Source: an uncultured Rubrobacteraceae bacterium (GTDB taxonomy: Bacteria; Actinomycetota; Rubrobacteria; Rubrobacterales; Rubrobacteraceae). From it: DNA of 17,630 nucleotides. How positions within the stretch are numbered: position 1 is the first letter of the stretch; the number at the start of each line of letters is the position of its first letter. The stretch is taken from positions 1 to 17,630 of the forward strand of contig CADCVI010000015.1 in the NCBI GenBank assembly GCA_902806105.1, written 5' to 3'. The notes beneath the pieces are model-generated. The model saw nothing but the letters and a program-made list of their open reading frames with translations. It did no database searches and was not told the DNA's origin. Positions 1,075 through 16,681 of this stretch are shown one piece after another. A program made the position numbers and the translations under genes.

Positions 1075-1170
1075 TTCCTTCGACGGACGACAAAGGCAAA
1101 CCCGCCGCGAGGCGGTGACGCAAAGCCAGGGGCCTCACGCCAGGCAGCCCGGTTACCGAAACCGAAGGAG
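1075..1170 (+). ncRNA. Cyclic di-GMP-I (GEMM-I) riboswitch
   Basis: The core matches the GEMM-I consensus from memory: AAAGGCAAACC (1092-1102), hairpin P2 with stem CCGCC / GGCGG closed by a GCGA (GNRA) tetraloop at about 1107-1110, the joining segment GTGACGCAAAGCCA (1115-1128), the P3 arm, and the closing CAGCCCGGTTACCG (about 1145-1158). A possible closing stem P1 is TTCCTTCG (1075-1082) with CGAAGGAG (1163-1170): seven Watson-Crick pairs and one G-T wobble. The 3' strand of this stem contains the AAGGAG Shine-Dalgarno site of the gene starting at 1177. Ligand binding, which stabilises P1 in this class, would therefore be expected to hide the ribosome site, an OFF switch acting on translation. 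The aptamer call is strong; the direction of control is inferred. Confidence 0.93.
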
Positions 1171-1176
1171 AGAAGC

Positions 1177-1743
1177 ATGAGCAACCGGATCGTTTTCGTG
1201 CTGGTGGCGGCGCTGTTGGTCGCGATGACCGCAGGGATGGCCCAGGCGAAGGGCAAGCCGGCGAAGAAGCCGCCTGTGGTCGTCCACGAATTCCGGGGGA
1301 CCGTCGCCTCCGTGGATGCGGCGAGCGGCTCCGTCGCCGTTGACGTGAAGCAGACGAACCAGGCCGCGCGCCCCTTCGTGAACCGCACGGTCTACTTCAA
1401 GGCGGTGGCGAGCACGAAGATCAGCCTGGACGGGCGGAGGGCGCGGCTGGGCGACCTGAGATCCGGGGACTCGGTAGTGGTCCATTCCAAGGCCCCCAGG
1501 GGCGCGGCCAGCTTCACCGCAAGCATCGTCAACGCCCAGAGCCCCGCCGCGCAGCCCTACTACCCGGACTTCGACGGCGACGGGATCGGAGCGGGGGACG
1601 CGGTGCAGTTCGCGCCGAACCGGGTGGGGGAGGGCTACGTGGCCCAGGGCGCCGACAACTGCGCCGACGTCTTCAACCCCGGCCAGGAGGACGTCGACGG
1701 CAACGGTGTAGGCGACGCCTGCGAGCCTGCCCCGACGATCTAG
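1177..1743 (+). CDS. Secreted protein with DUF5666-like domain and thrombospondin type-3 calcium-binding repeats
   Basis: 188 residues. A Sec signal peptide (SNR, hydrophobic core to about residue 22, AQA cleavage near residue 24) shows export. Residues about 37-120 form a small beta-rich domain (FRGTVASVDAASGSVAV...TKISLDGRRARLGDLRSGDSVVV) resembling DUF5666/OB-like domains. The C-terminus carries thrombospondin type-3 repeats: DFDGDGIG (131-138), then DNCADVFNPGQED (160-172) and VDGNGVGDAC (173-182). Their Asp-rich loops bind Ca2+ in this family, and C162 and C182 are the usual pair. No LPXTG or membrane anchor is seen, so it is probably released or wall-associated. The ATG follows AAGGAG by six bases. 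It lies directly behind a c-di-GMP riboswitch, which fits a surface or matrix protein controlled by the motility/biofilm messenger. Its precise role is unknown. Confidence 0.88.
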   Translation: MSNRIVFVLVAALLVAMTAGMAQAKGKPAKKPPVVVHEFRGTVASVDAASGSVAVDVKQTNQAARPFVNRTVYFKAVASTKISLDGRRARLGDLRSGDSVVVHSKAPRGAASFTASIVNAQSPAAQPYYPDFDGDGIGAGDAVQFAPNRVGEGYVAQGADNCADVFNPGQEDVDGNGVGDACEPAPTI

Positions 1744-8189: not shown

Positions 8190-8478
8190 CTTGTTACCGT
8201 CCTCGTTTTGAGGATACGAGGCGTGAGAGTGCCGGTCAGGGAGCGTGCGCTCGCGAGAGCCGTTGCCTCGGACCGGCGCCCGGGCACCGAGGGGGCGAGC
8301 TTCCCCGACCGCTCTCGCGGGCCGTCGAGATTCTTGTCATAGACGGCACTCGGGAGACGCATGGGCCGCGAGCACTCCCGGTCGCGTAAGAGGCCTTCCC
8401 CGCCCGCCCCGGCGTCTCGCGTTATCCTTATCGGTGAAGTGTGGCCCCGGTGGCCTACGACGAGGTAGAAGGAAGCGC

Positions 8479-9633
8479 ATGGGCGAAGGGACGAGAAAGA
8501 AACTGCTCAACGTCGAGGAGGAGCTTTCGGGGCTCTTCTTCGAGCGGAAGGAGGAGATCCGGGGTCTCGTCGTGGGCCTCCTCTCGAGGGAGCACGTCCT
8601 GCTCCTCGGCCCTCCCGGGGCGGCCAAGAGCGAGCTTGCGGAGGAGTTGTGCTCCAGGATCTTGTGGGAGGGCGGGGACCGCGCCGGCTACTTCCGTTGG
8701 CTGCTTTCGCGCACTTCGACGCCGGAGGAGCTCTTCGGTCCGGTCTCGCTCAAGGCGCTCGAGGAGGACTCCTACCGGCGCAAGACGAAGGGGAAGCTCC
8801 CCGAGGCCAGGGTAGCTTTCCTCGACGAGGTCTTCGAGTGCAACTCGGCGGTCCTCAACGGCCTGCTCTCGGTCCTCAACGAGCGGTTGTTCTTCAACGA
8901 CGGCGAGCCAACGCCGATACCCCTGGAGATGGTGGTCGCGGCCTCCAACGAGCCGCCGGACGAGAGGGAGGAGCTCGAGGCCCTCTTCGACCGCTTCTTG
9001 CTGCGCTACGTCGTCGCCTACGTGAAGGAGGACGAAAGCTTCGAGGCGATGCTCCGCAGGGAGTCGGAGGCCCCTCCGCAGAGGACGAGCCTCGCCGCCG
9101 GTGAGCTTCTCGAGGCGCAGGAGGAGATCCGGAAGGTCGACGCCTCGAGGGCGCTTCCTGCGATCGCGGTCCTGAGGCAGGAGCTGTCGGAGGCCGGGAT
9201 CTCCGCGTCGGACAGGCGCTACGCCAAGAGCCTGAAGCTCCTCAGGGCGAACGCCTACCTCGAGGGGCGCGACGAGGTCACGGACGAGGACCTTCTGATC
9301 CTGGCGAACGTGCTCTGGGTGGAGCCGGGCCAGGCCCGGGACGTGCGCAAAAAGGTCATGGTGCTGGCGAGCCCCGAGCTCTCGGAGGCCCAGGACCTCC
9401 TCGAAGAGGCCCGGGAGGTGCACAAGAAGGCCATCTCGGCGCCCCTCGAGCGCGCGGGCGAGGAGGGGCAGGAGGCGAACGCGAAGCTCAAGGAGGTGAC
9501 CAACCGGCTCCTCGCCCTCAGAAACGACGCCGAGAGGGTCTCGCGCGGGACCCAGAAGATCGACGAAGCCCTTACGGCCGTGGTCGAGATGAACAAGGAG
9601 GTGATCCACAAGTGGCTCGGCATCACGATCTAG
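8479..9633 (+). CDS. MoxR-family AAA+ ATPase (RavA-like)
   Basis: 384 residues. The ATG at 8479 follows GTAGAAGGAAG closely. The AAA+ core is clear: Walker A GPPGAAKS (44-51), a YFRWLLSRTSTPEELFGPVS block (71-90) typical of RavA, LKALEEDSYRRKTKG, Walker B VAFLDEVF (112-119), NSAVLNGLLSVLNERLF, sensor-1 AASNEPP (N157), arginine-finger region LFDRFLLR and sensor-2-like SDRRYAKSLKLL. The C-terminal 100 residues are helical and charged. MoxR/RavA ATPases form hexamers that, with a VWA-domain partner, remodel or activate other protein complexes in the cytoplasm. The next gene encodes such a VWA protein and overlaps this one by 22 bases. The closest known layout is ravA-viaA of enterobacteria. The target of this pair is not indicated by the neighbours. 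Confidence 0.93.
   Translation: MGEGTRKKLLNVEEELSGLFFERKEEIRGLVVGLLSREHVLLLGPPGAAKSELAEELCSRILWEGGDRAGYFRWLLSRTSTPEELFGPVSLKALEEDSYRRKTKGKLPEARVAFLDEVFECNSAVLNGLLSVLNERLFFNDGEPTPIPLEMVVAASNEPPDEREELEALFDRFLLRYVVAYVKEDESFEAMLRRESEAPPQRTSLAAGELLEAQEEIRKVDASRALPAIAVLRQELSEAGISASDRRYAKSLKLLRANAYLEGRDEVTDEDLLILANVLWVEPGQARDVRKKVMVLASPELSEAQDLLEEAREVHKKAISAPLERAGEEGQEANAKLKEVTNRLLALRNDAERVSRGTQKIDEALTAVVEMNKEVIHKWLGITI
9595..9606 (+). promoter_or_regulatory. Perfect 12-base Shine-Dalgarno sequence inside the MoxR gene
   Basis: AAGGAGGTGATC, the full complement of the usual 16S rRNA 3' end, lies within codons of the ATPase gene and 5 bases before the GTG at 9612. It fixes the start of the VWA gene and implies coupled but strong independent translation. 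Confidence 0.85.
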
Positions 9634-11168
9634 GGGATGAAGGGGGGCCGAGGATCGAGGACCTGCTGGGGCTGTCGTTGGAGGACCTGGAGGCCATAAG
9701 GAGCAGCATGCCACAGCGGGCGGAGGAGGCCCCTGGCCCTTCCGAGCAGAACGTCCTGCAGGACCGCTTCGACGGCCGCCTCTTCGGCGAGCTCTACGAG
9801 GCGAGCCGGGAGATCCGGGTCCTCGCCGAGTCGGAGGGTGCCCCCGAGACCTTTCCGGCCCTCCTCAGGGACTTCTTCTGCGTCTTCTACAAGGCGGCCC
9901 CTGTCCTCGCGCCCGGGGAGAATGTGGACGAGCCCCACCGGCGGCAGAACAGGCAGTTTGTAGAGGGGCTGCTCGGGGACGAGAAGACCGGCGTCGCCCG
10001 TCTCTTCACCCGCCTGGATCCCCTCTCCAGCGGCCTAGCTACCTTGGCGGCCGGCAGGCGCGTGCTGGAGGAGCTTACCGGGGACCCCGAACCGGAGGAC
10101 CCGTCCCGGCAGGCGGAGGATCCACCTCCTCCTCAGCCCCGAGAACCCGGGGAAGACGGGCCTGAAGAAGGAGTCGGAGCGCCCGCCGAAGGGGAGACCG
10201 CAGGGGGCGATCCGGACGAGGACCTGGAGCTAGCGGTCCGGGCGGCAGCCGGGGAGGCGCTTCGGGAGGCGGAGGACCTTCAAAAGGCGCTCTCCGGTTG
10301 GGGGCTTTCCCCCTCGGACCTCCAGAAGGCGCCGCTCGCGGAGCGCTTCGAACTCGCCCGAAGGCTCAGGGGGAAGGACCTCAGGCGCCTCACGGACCTC
10401 GTCGGCAGGATGCGCCGCTTGGCGGCAGCGTCACGCAGAAAGAAGGAGAGGGAGAGGCGCGAGGAGGTCCACTCGGTAACGCTGGGCGGGGACCCCGCCC
10501 GGGTACTCCCGGCCGAGCTCGCCGCGGGGCTGGCCTCCCGGAACCCCCTCAGGCGCCTCGACTTCTACCGGCGCCTGGCCGAGGAGCAGGTCCTCTCCCA
10601 CGAGCTCCGCGCCCGGGAACCCTCGGGGCGCGGACCCGTCGTTGCCCTGATCGACGCCTCCGGCTCGATGTCCGGGCAGAAGATGGAGTGGGCCGTGGCC
10701 GTCGCCCTGGCCCTCGTGGACGAGGCGGGACGTCGCAGGAGGGGCGAGCCTGGCAGGCGCGCGAGCGTCCTCTTCTTCAACTCCGGGCTGGTCCGGGAGG
10801 TGACCTTCGAGCCCAGGGAGCGCGACGCGAGGAAGCTGCTCGAGGTCGCCGGGGTCGGCGCGGGCGGGGGGACCGACTACAGGCCGGCCCTGACGCGAGC
10901 GGTCGAGATCGCCCGAGGTTCGAGGCACGAAGGGGCCGACCTCCTGATCGTAACCGACGCCCTGTTCCGCCTCCCCGAGGGATACGTGGAGGAGCTAGAG
11001 GGCCACAAGAGCCGCCTCGGCTTCAAGCTCTACTCCGTGCTCATCGGCGCCGAACGTCAACGGGCCGAGGAGGAACTCGGTCGTTACTCGGAGGAGGTGT
11101 GGTCGGTGGCGGACCTCGCCGCGGACGGGGACGGGATCGCCGGGTCAGTCTTCGGCCGCATCTCCTAG
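9612..11168 (+). CDS. VWA-domain protein, partner of the MoxR ATPase (ViaA/CoxE-like)
   Basis: 518 residues from GTG 9612, set by the 12-base Shine-Dalgarno site. Residues about 1-155 are helical and hydrophilic. Residues about 156-205 are a low-complexity Pro/Glu/Gly linker (EPEDPSRQAEDPPPPQPREP and beyond). Residues 206-335 are helical and basic. The C-terminal von Willebrand A domain (about 342-518) begins VVALIDASGSMSG, with a complete MIDAS: D348-x-S350-x-S352, T421 in GGGTDYRPAL, and D449 in LLIVTDALF. The metal site binds Mg2+ and a protein carboxylate. This order, helical N-terminal region then C-terminal VWA, is that of ViaA and CoxE-type partners. It should work with the ATPase encoded just upstream as a chaperone-like complex in the cytoplasm. 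The acidic proline-rich linker is longer than I expect from enterobacterial ViaA. Confidence 0.9.
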   Translation: MARHHDLGDEGGPRIEDLLGLSLEDLEAIRSSMPQRAEEAPGPSEQNVLQDRFDGRLFGELYEASREIRVLAESEGAPETFPALLRDFFCVFYKAAPVLAPGENVDEPHRRQNRQFVEGLLGDEKTGVARLFTRLDPLSSGLATLAAGRRVLEELTGDPEPEDPSRQAEDPPPPQPREPGEDGPEEGVGAPAEGETAGGDPDEDLELAVRAAAGEALREAEDLQKALSGWGLSPSDLQKAPLAERFELARRLRGKDLRRLTDLVGRMRRLAAASRRKKERERREEVHSVTLGGDPARVLPAELAAGLASRNPLRRLDFYRRLAEEQVLSHELRAREPSGRGPVVALIDASGSMSGQKMEWAVAVALALVDEAGRRRRGEPGRRASVLFFNSGLVREVTFEPRERDARKLLEVAGVGAGGGTDYRPALTRAVEIARGSRHEGADLLIVTDALFRLPEGYVEELEGHKSRLGFKLYSVLIGAERQRAEEELGRYSEEVWSVADLAADGDGIAGSVFGRIS

Positions 11169-16499: not shown

Positions 16500-16681
16500 T
16501 AGGCGTCCCCGTCGATTCGCCCGCTAAAGCTTTCCCCCTCCCCGGCCGATACATATTCAGACCGGGCCGGCACCCGATCACCCCCCTCCTAAAGACCGGC
16601 CCGCGTCTCCTCGCCCGCGCCCCAACTCTCCCCCTTTGCCCCCGGAACGTTCCAGGCCGTCGCGGCGGGCTTCTGCGAACG

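Follow-up and report, generated by a model that had tools for sequence, protein, structure and literature searches.

A c-di-GMP class I riboswitch at a predicted WhiG-type promoter ahead of a secreted-protein gene in the Rubrobacter class

In Rubrobacter radiotolerans, c-di-GMP arms the anti-sigma factor RsiG to hold the sigma factor WhiG; 12 of 20 predicted WhiG promoters lie upstream of mapped starts there, and genes for type IV pili and for c-di-GMP enzymes are among those that the predicted promoters serve (PMC8325347). The Vc2 riboswitch of Vibrio cholerae (RF01051, class I) has a three-helix fold, a GNRA loop and the contact bases G20, A47 and C92 (PMC3764141 and PMC4744006). Bdellovibrio combines in one organism a sigma28-type regulon that includes surface proteins and proteases with a c-di-GMP riboswitch RNA (PMC3627812), and its FliA attack-phase regulon together with this RNA, merRNA, is the nearest precedent for the locus described here. 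We analysed a 17,630-nt stretch of DNA (the window) from an uncultured Rubrobacteraceae bacterium; positions are those of the window, and all features given within it lie on the + strand. An original prediction, made from the sequence, had placed a c-di-GMP class I riboswitch ahead of a secreted-protein gene with its aptamer adjoining the ribosome site, and this part of it is supported by what follows.

A cmscan search against Rfam matched positions 1086-1161 to c-di-GMP-I-GGC (RF03167) at 64 bits (E 2.3e-13), above the gathering cut-off of 59 bits and over the whole length of the model (1-80 of 80); a lower-scoring match from the same clan that overlapped it was omitted from the output. The predicted GEMM-I-type core is recovered end to end, with RF03167, and not the RF01051 proposed for the check, as the best model. 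RF01051 itself recovers the ortholog leader in a related genome (G239) at 62.9 bits. Covariance-model alignment and folding place P2 at 1096-1121, with the GNRA loop GCGA at 1107-1110, and P3 at 1124-1154, and inspection of the sequence finds the GACGCAAAGCC segment at 1117-1127; tetraloop and segment are both present as predicted. In the Vc2 numbering of PMC3764141, the ligand contacts G20 and C92 correspond to G1095 and C1156, the latter also by alignment, and the alignment puts A47 at A1122. The window aptamer shows three marks of class I: a match to the whole-aptamer model, the three contacts and a GNRA loop on P2.

These contacts are nearly constant among the 123 leaders of our set (122 matches in relatives plus the window). 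G20 is a G in 122 of them. At A47, a position that our script located in 121 leaders, 119 have A, one has C and one has G, and the leader with G is a weak match of 35.8 bits. The window and these leaders differ here from RF03167, whose consensus has G at A47. The c-di-GMP-I-GGC (RF03167) family reportedly goes back to Weinberg 2017, and we infer that "GGC" in its name denotes the three contact bases. The candidate reading of the window as a GGC ligand variant was rejected, the base at the A47 contact being A and not G. From their sequences, we take the window aptamer and its relatives' leaders to be c-di-GMP sensors of the canonical kind, for which a subfamily model gives the best score. Since the G, A and C contacts are canonical, c-di-GMP is the expected ligand, and it is very probably the ligand of the window riboswitch. 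GGDEF domains occur in all 39 related genomes of the Rubrobacter class.

RF03167 matched 28 of these 39 genomes, with 122 matches at E<=0.01 (six of them below 40 bits and possibly false, retained in the counts), 82 at >=59 bits and up to 18 per genome; what the original prediction took for a link to "one surface protein" is a set of up to that size in each genome. The RF01051 model likewise matched 28 of the 39. In a wider draw from the phylum, 150 of 396 genomes had RF01051 matches, so such riboswitches are not peculiar to the Rubrobacter class, and the highest counts among the genomes listed were those of its members. On one contig of G373 (C432, L098) two matches lie on the same strand, and on another (C651, L132) on opposite strands, the members of each pair being about 340-430 bases apart.

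The gene behind the window aptamer (1177-1743) is an open reading frame for a 188-aa protein, predicted to be secreted. Its predicted structure has a hydrophobic N-terminal helix, an OB-like barrel at about residues 34-121 modelled with high confidence, and a poorly predicted TSP3-like tail. A secreted TSP3-repeat protein had been proposed. The Pfam TSP_3 match of the window protein is sub-threshold (E 0.045, 13.9 bits, cut-off 25); 20 of 21 aligned members match TSP_3 at E<=1 (best 8.6e-5). The predicted barrel resembles the periplasmic copper/silver chaperone CusF, the best fold match (E 1.4e-4, target TM 0.72), and some family members show weak Pfam CusF and DUF5666 matches, in line with a CusF-like fold. 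A protein search gave 22 matches, including Rubrobacter marinus GBA65_09215, and 20 of them entered an alignment with the window protein. Seven of the 39 class genomes contain relatives of the gene. Those in G239, G338, G208 and G132 align from the N-terminus and all four have a riboswitch just upstream, while Rfam gave none at five loci with partial or weaker matches, three in the class and two outside it (G235, G322). Elsewhere in the window, adjacent genes for a RavA-like ATPase and a ViaA-like protein lie at 8245-11168, both below NCBIfam cut-offs.

Two promoter types stand out upstream of the aptamers, WhiG-type (scanned over 92 upstream bases) and TATAAT-like (scanned over 30). The window has the first, TAAA-N16-TCCGATAA, with the -35 element TAAA at 1047-1050 (TAAAG, 1047-1051) and the -10 element TCCGATAA at 1067-1074. 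It shows one mismatch overall to the WhiG/sigma28-type consensus TAAA/GCCGATAA taken from PMC8325347, and lies within the limit of two mismatches that this paper sets. At this limit, a WhiG-type promoter precedes 42 of the 123 leaders, where shuffled sequence would give 1.4 and control stretches from further upstream gave 2 in 117; in 38 of these 42 leaders the two elements are 16 nt apart. Leaders of this type are concentrated by genome: where the exact WhiG pattern occurs at least four times they make up 40 of 51 leaders, against 1 of 71 in other genomes, a threshold that was chosen after the counts were seen and that applies to counts including some of the leaders themselves. By genome, pattern count and WhiG-type leaders correlate (Spearman 0.81), and the reversed pattern, used as a control, gave 0 or 1 match per strand and genome. 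All six leaders of G239 are WhiG-type, as are 5/5 in G356, 4/4 in G100 and 4/4 in G175. G373 has 0 of 18, no exact pattern match and no WhiG gene above cut-off.

A WhiG-like gene above cut-off is present in 29 of the 39 class genomes, and the one WhiG-like protein tested matches PDB 7lq4_A, "WhiG", at 9.5e-51. Among the 28 leader-bearing genomes, those with WhiG-type leaders have the gene or lack it in the ratio 15/1, compared with 6/6 for those without such leaders (Fisher P 0.023), an association weaker than the split by pattern count. The single exception on one side is G329, with two WhiG-type leaders and no WhiG gene above cut-off. The six genomes on the other side, which have the gene and no WhiG-type leader, would fit a merely coincidental promoter match in the window, the leader being transcribed by the main sigma factor; the excess of 42 over 1.4, the near-constant gap and the contrast of 40/51 with 1/71 between genome types make this highly unlikely. 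An RsiG motif scan of ten whiG loci gave no match at those loci. Judged from sequence, a WhiG-type promoter in all likelihood drives the window leader. A second WhiG-type promoter match lies at 16525-16552 (TAAA, a 16-nt gap and GCCGATAC, one mismatch), with no Rfam match downstream at gathering scores.

The predicted transcription start is G1082, placed by the base bias after the -10 element and by the distance to G14 of the aptamer. At the eighth base past the -10 element, 26 of 41 WhiG-type leaders have a G and 80% have a purine. From predicted start to G14 the commonest distance in these leaders is 7 nt (12/41), with 25/41 at 9 nt or less and the rest reaching up to 50. In another 41 leaders, which carry a TATAAT-like box within the 30 upstream bases scanned, it is most often 6 nt (20/41). 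Two unrelated promoter types thus share a similar distance from start to aptamer, which argues for nearly the same transcript start, and we are fairly confident that transcription of the window leader begins within 2 nt of 1082.

This start bears directly on P1. The Shine-Dalgarno sequence AAGGAG occupies 1165-1170, with six bases between it and the ATG at 1177, as predicted. The original prediction further held that an 8-bp P1 (1075-1082 with 1163-1170) contains this site and closes on c-di-GMP, turning the gene off. The two strands are indeed exactly complementary in the DNA (seven Watson-Crick pairs and one G-U), and similar complementarity occurs in G100:C15, G100:C21 and G398. As a working P1, however, the stem fares badly. 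Its 5' strand corresponds to predicted positions -7 to +1, so with a start near G1082 seven of the eight bases would not be transcribed. Complementarity is near chance: when the register may shift freely, all eight pairs form in 3 of the 53 near-start leaders (5.7%) and in 2.8% of mismatched leader pairs, and at least seven of eight form in 26% and 22%, respectively. Relatives, in which loss of the pairing had been named as grounds for refutation, keep 4/8 (G239), 3/8 (G338), 5/8 (G208) and 2/8 (G132) pairs in the exact register; because the G208 leader is not WhiG-type and the start codon assigned by rule in G132 is 147 nt away, G239 and G338 weigh most. On these grounds the stem was rejected as a working P1; as a proposal from sequence it is poorly supported.

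A different register emerges from covariation, computed with our own permutation script position by position against permuted leaders, with kinship uncorrected. G14 was located in 119 of the 123 leaders, and removal of identical ones left 116, of which 40 were WhiG-type and 76 other (G398, with three mismatches, was counted as WhiG-type in this set only). The favoured register in the 116 pairs the base before G14 with the base after C93 (G14-1/C93+1) and continues outward, beyond a two-base bulge, from -2/+4. The -2/+4 cell scores z 5.5 in WhiG-type and 5.3 in other leaders, and -3/+5 scores 3.6 and 5.9; -4/+6 (z 3.5) appears in the WhiG-type list only and -5/+7 (z 3.9) in the other list only. 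In the WhiG class, some cells on the diagonal of the 8-bp stem score as well (-5/+4, z 4.1; -8/+7, z 3.2), in favour of that stem, and the unrelated cell -14/+14 reaches z 4.5; since off-register cells attain similar values, relatedness adds noise to the covariation. Duplex permutation in 23 short WhiG-type leaders gave borderline values when the strand ahead of the start was set against the 3' region (P 0.046 and 0.065), again a point for the 8-bp stem. For the transcribed P1 strand of the same 23 it did not reach significance (P 0.07 and 0.15), a point against the explanation favoured here; in the other, non-WhiG leaders the near strand gave P 0.007. Placed on the window by covariation and by the aptamer-constrained fold, in which its pairs form, the family register runs from 1084-1089 on the 5' side to 1157-1164 on the 3' side (1084-1086/1162-1164 and 1088-1089/1157-1158, with the mismatch A1087-A1161). 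Of its four outer pairs the window keeps three, G239 one, G338 two, G208 three and G132 three; the register thus varies among leaders, and the low figures for G239 and G338 speak against it. This P1 ends just before the Shine-Dalgarno sequence, which starts directly after it.

Whether the ribosome site is exposed depends on where the modelled transcript starts. Folded from 1082, the Shine-Dalgarno sequence is unpaired at 0.81-0.85 in the free RNA and 0.90-0.97 with the aptamer formed, and in a second set of folds at 0.87 and 0.98; in these folds it is open in both states, and not hidden by a ligand-closed stem as had been proposed. From 1075 the fold to 1200 gives 0.07 free and 0.19 with the aptamer, and from 1060 it gives 0.12 and 0.25, so that these folds form the 8-bp stem and hide the site either way. 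Only when a start at 1075 or 1060 is combined with a fold to 1260 does exposure fall on aptamer formation (0.45 to 0.18 and 0.73 to 0.25, respectively), as the original hiding model would have it. Longer folds would thus allow such hiding, and the case against the stem rests on the start site and the relatives. With most of its 5' strand ahead of the predicted start and 2-5 of 8 pairs kept in relatives, hiding of the site by the 8-bp stem is improbable.

The strand between the -10 element and +1 could have another role, pairing with the Shine-Dalgarno sequence only in longer transcripts from upstream, so that only WhiG-started messages are translated. Phage T4 gene e provides a comparable case of read-through silencing. 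In the window the Shine-Dalgarno sequence is unpaired at 0.85 from the predicted start, at 0.22 with 15 more upstream bases and at 0.81 once the last seven of these are swapped, and the effect is strong also in G100:C15 and G100:C21. However, among 18 WhiG-type leaders no more than 9 have a strand of their own that hides the site better than swapped strands do, and the G239 relative stays open (0.88), which leaves such silencing in the window quite improbable. An anti-Shine-Dalgarno strand hidden in the promoter was rejected as a general rule on the same 9/18.

Family geometry offers a further guide to the mode of control. With only 15 bases between the end of the aptamer and the ATG there is no room for a terminator, in agreement with the prediction that none intervenes. 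Control would probably be exerted at translation. Of the leaders given a start codon by our own scoring rule, 18 of 39 WhiG-type ones and 35 of 76 others have it no more than 25 nt from C93. Among these near-start cases, the first base of the Shine-Dalgarno sequence falls inside P1, no more than 5 nt from C93, in 29 of the 35 other leaders and in 8 of the 18 of WhiG type. When the aptamer forms, modelled exposure drops in 16 and rises in 8 of the 26 leaders that have a TATAAT-like box; among 17 near-start WhiG-type leaders it drops in 7 and rises in 5. In an ON switch or other platform, the aptamer would free the ribosome site from competing folds, shield the 5' end or work together with Rho; c-di-GMP would then raise expression after initiation while RsiG lowers it, making a band-pass. 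It draws on the slightly higher exposure with the aptamer in the window, where the aptamer state in the fold 1082-1260 lies 7.6 kcal/mol above the free ensemble; the 29/35 and the 16 against 8 argue for OFF in the family, and we consider an ON switch or other platform unlikely. Since the aptamer does not lower exposure in the window, the OFF effect there rests on a steric argument, and the direction, supported mainly by the family geometry, leans slightly towards OFF.

In the mechanism that we favour, the transcript would start near G1082 at the WhiG/sigma28-type promoter and open with the c-di-GMP class I aptamer. Binding of c-di-GMP would lock P1 against the ribosome site, and P1, crowding the site without pairing the Shine-Dalgarno sequence, would reduce translation initiation. 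At high c-di-GMP, RsiG would also hold WhiG and less transcript would be made, so that the gene would be reduced twice, in transcript and in translation. As an explanation of the whole, a WhiG-type start with a canonical aptamer and double control through P1 crowding is somewhat probable.

The proteins encoded behind the leaders, where at least 80 aa long, were clustered by BLAST, and for 20 of the 38 clusters a single representative was scanned with Pfam and gave the cluster its name. Among these clusters are subtilases (19 leaders from 16 genomes) and family 16 glycosidases (11 from 11), further beta-helix, RTX and TSP3 proteins, glycosidases of families 5 and 26, NlpC/P60 and phytase, together with ECF sigma factors and GAF-HD proteins. 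A crude test on targets of the same minimum length found a hydrophobic N-terminal stretch in 31 of 35 WhiG-type targets and 41 of 78 others. Our analysis suggests that c-di-GMP may act twice, mostly on exported proteins. For class genomes that keep WhiG, we think it rather likely that most of the class I regulon is WhiG-transcribed, with c-di-GMP gating surface and exported proteins at sigma release and at leader folding, the remaining genomes often having TATAAT-like promoters at a similar distance. Such double gating, if true, makes a quantitative question testable, namely whether it gives a sharper c-di-GMP response or a band-pass. It would also provide candidate exported WhiG/RsiG targets beyond pili in a deep actinobacterial lineage (subtilase, family 16/26 glycosidase, beta-helix, TSP3-like).

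Several leaders precede regulatory genes. Leaders at G197:C1:2064072-2064146 (L096) and G208:C188:5531-5608 (L162) lie upstream of sigma-factor genes, the first assigned by Pfam and the second by its BLAST cluster, and L096 is about 2 kb from a whiG-like gene. With six leaders in G282, G250 and G373 (for example L160, L174 and L175) standing before ECF-type sigma genes, c-di-GMP may control further sigma factors. Genes for GAF-HD proteins follow five leaders in G143, G250 and G373 (for example L164 and L165); such proteins can include c-di-GMP phosphodiesterases, and a feedback loop behind these leaders is possible.

The window riboswitch itself is a new member of an already known class. Among open-licence full texts, we found none joining Rubrobacter, riboswitch and c-di-GMP; those pairing a riboswitch with WhiG, RsiG, an anti-sigma factor or sigma28 were reviews or concerned other systems, and stacked control by one messenger, through an anti-sigma factor and then a riboswitch on the transcript, was not found in print. 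With Vc2 the window riboswitch shares the three-helix fold, the GNRA loop and the three contacts (PMC3764141 and PMC4744006); it differs in its short P1, only a few bases into the predicted transcript, and in being one of many such leaders per genome in its class. No model scores higher for the window riboswitch than RF03167, which also scores strongly across the Rubrobacter class. In Bdellovibrio, no FliA promoter is marked for merRNA in Table 2 of PMC3627812, and merRNA is proposed to be a c-di-GMP store and not a gene leader. The RsiG/WhiG switch of R. radiotolerans (PMC8325347) has its promoter consensus, its bacterial class and its messenger in common with the window locus. The paper on it, the one open-licence text found to combine RsiG, WhiG and Rubrobacter, does not use the word "riboswitch" in its main text; in the window a c-di-GMP riboswitch stands directly behind the WhiG-type promoter.
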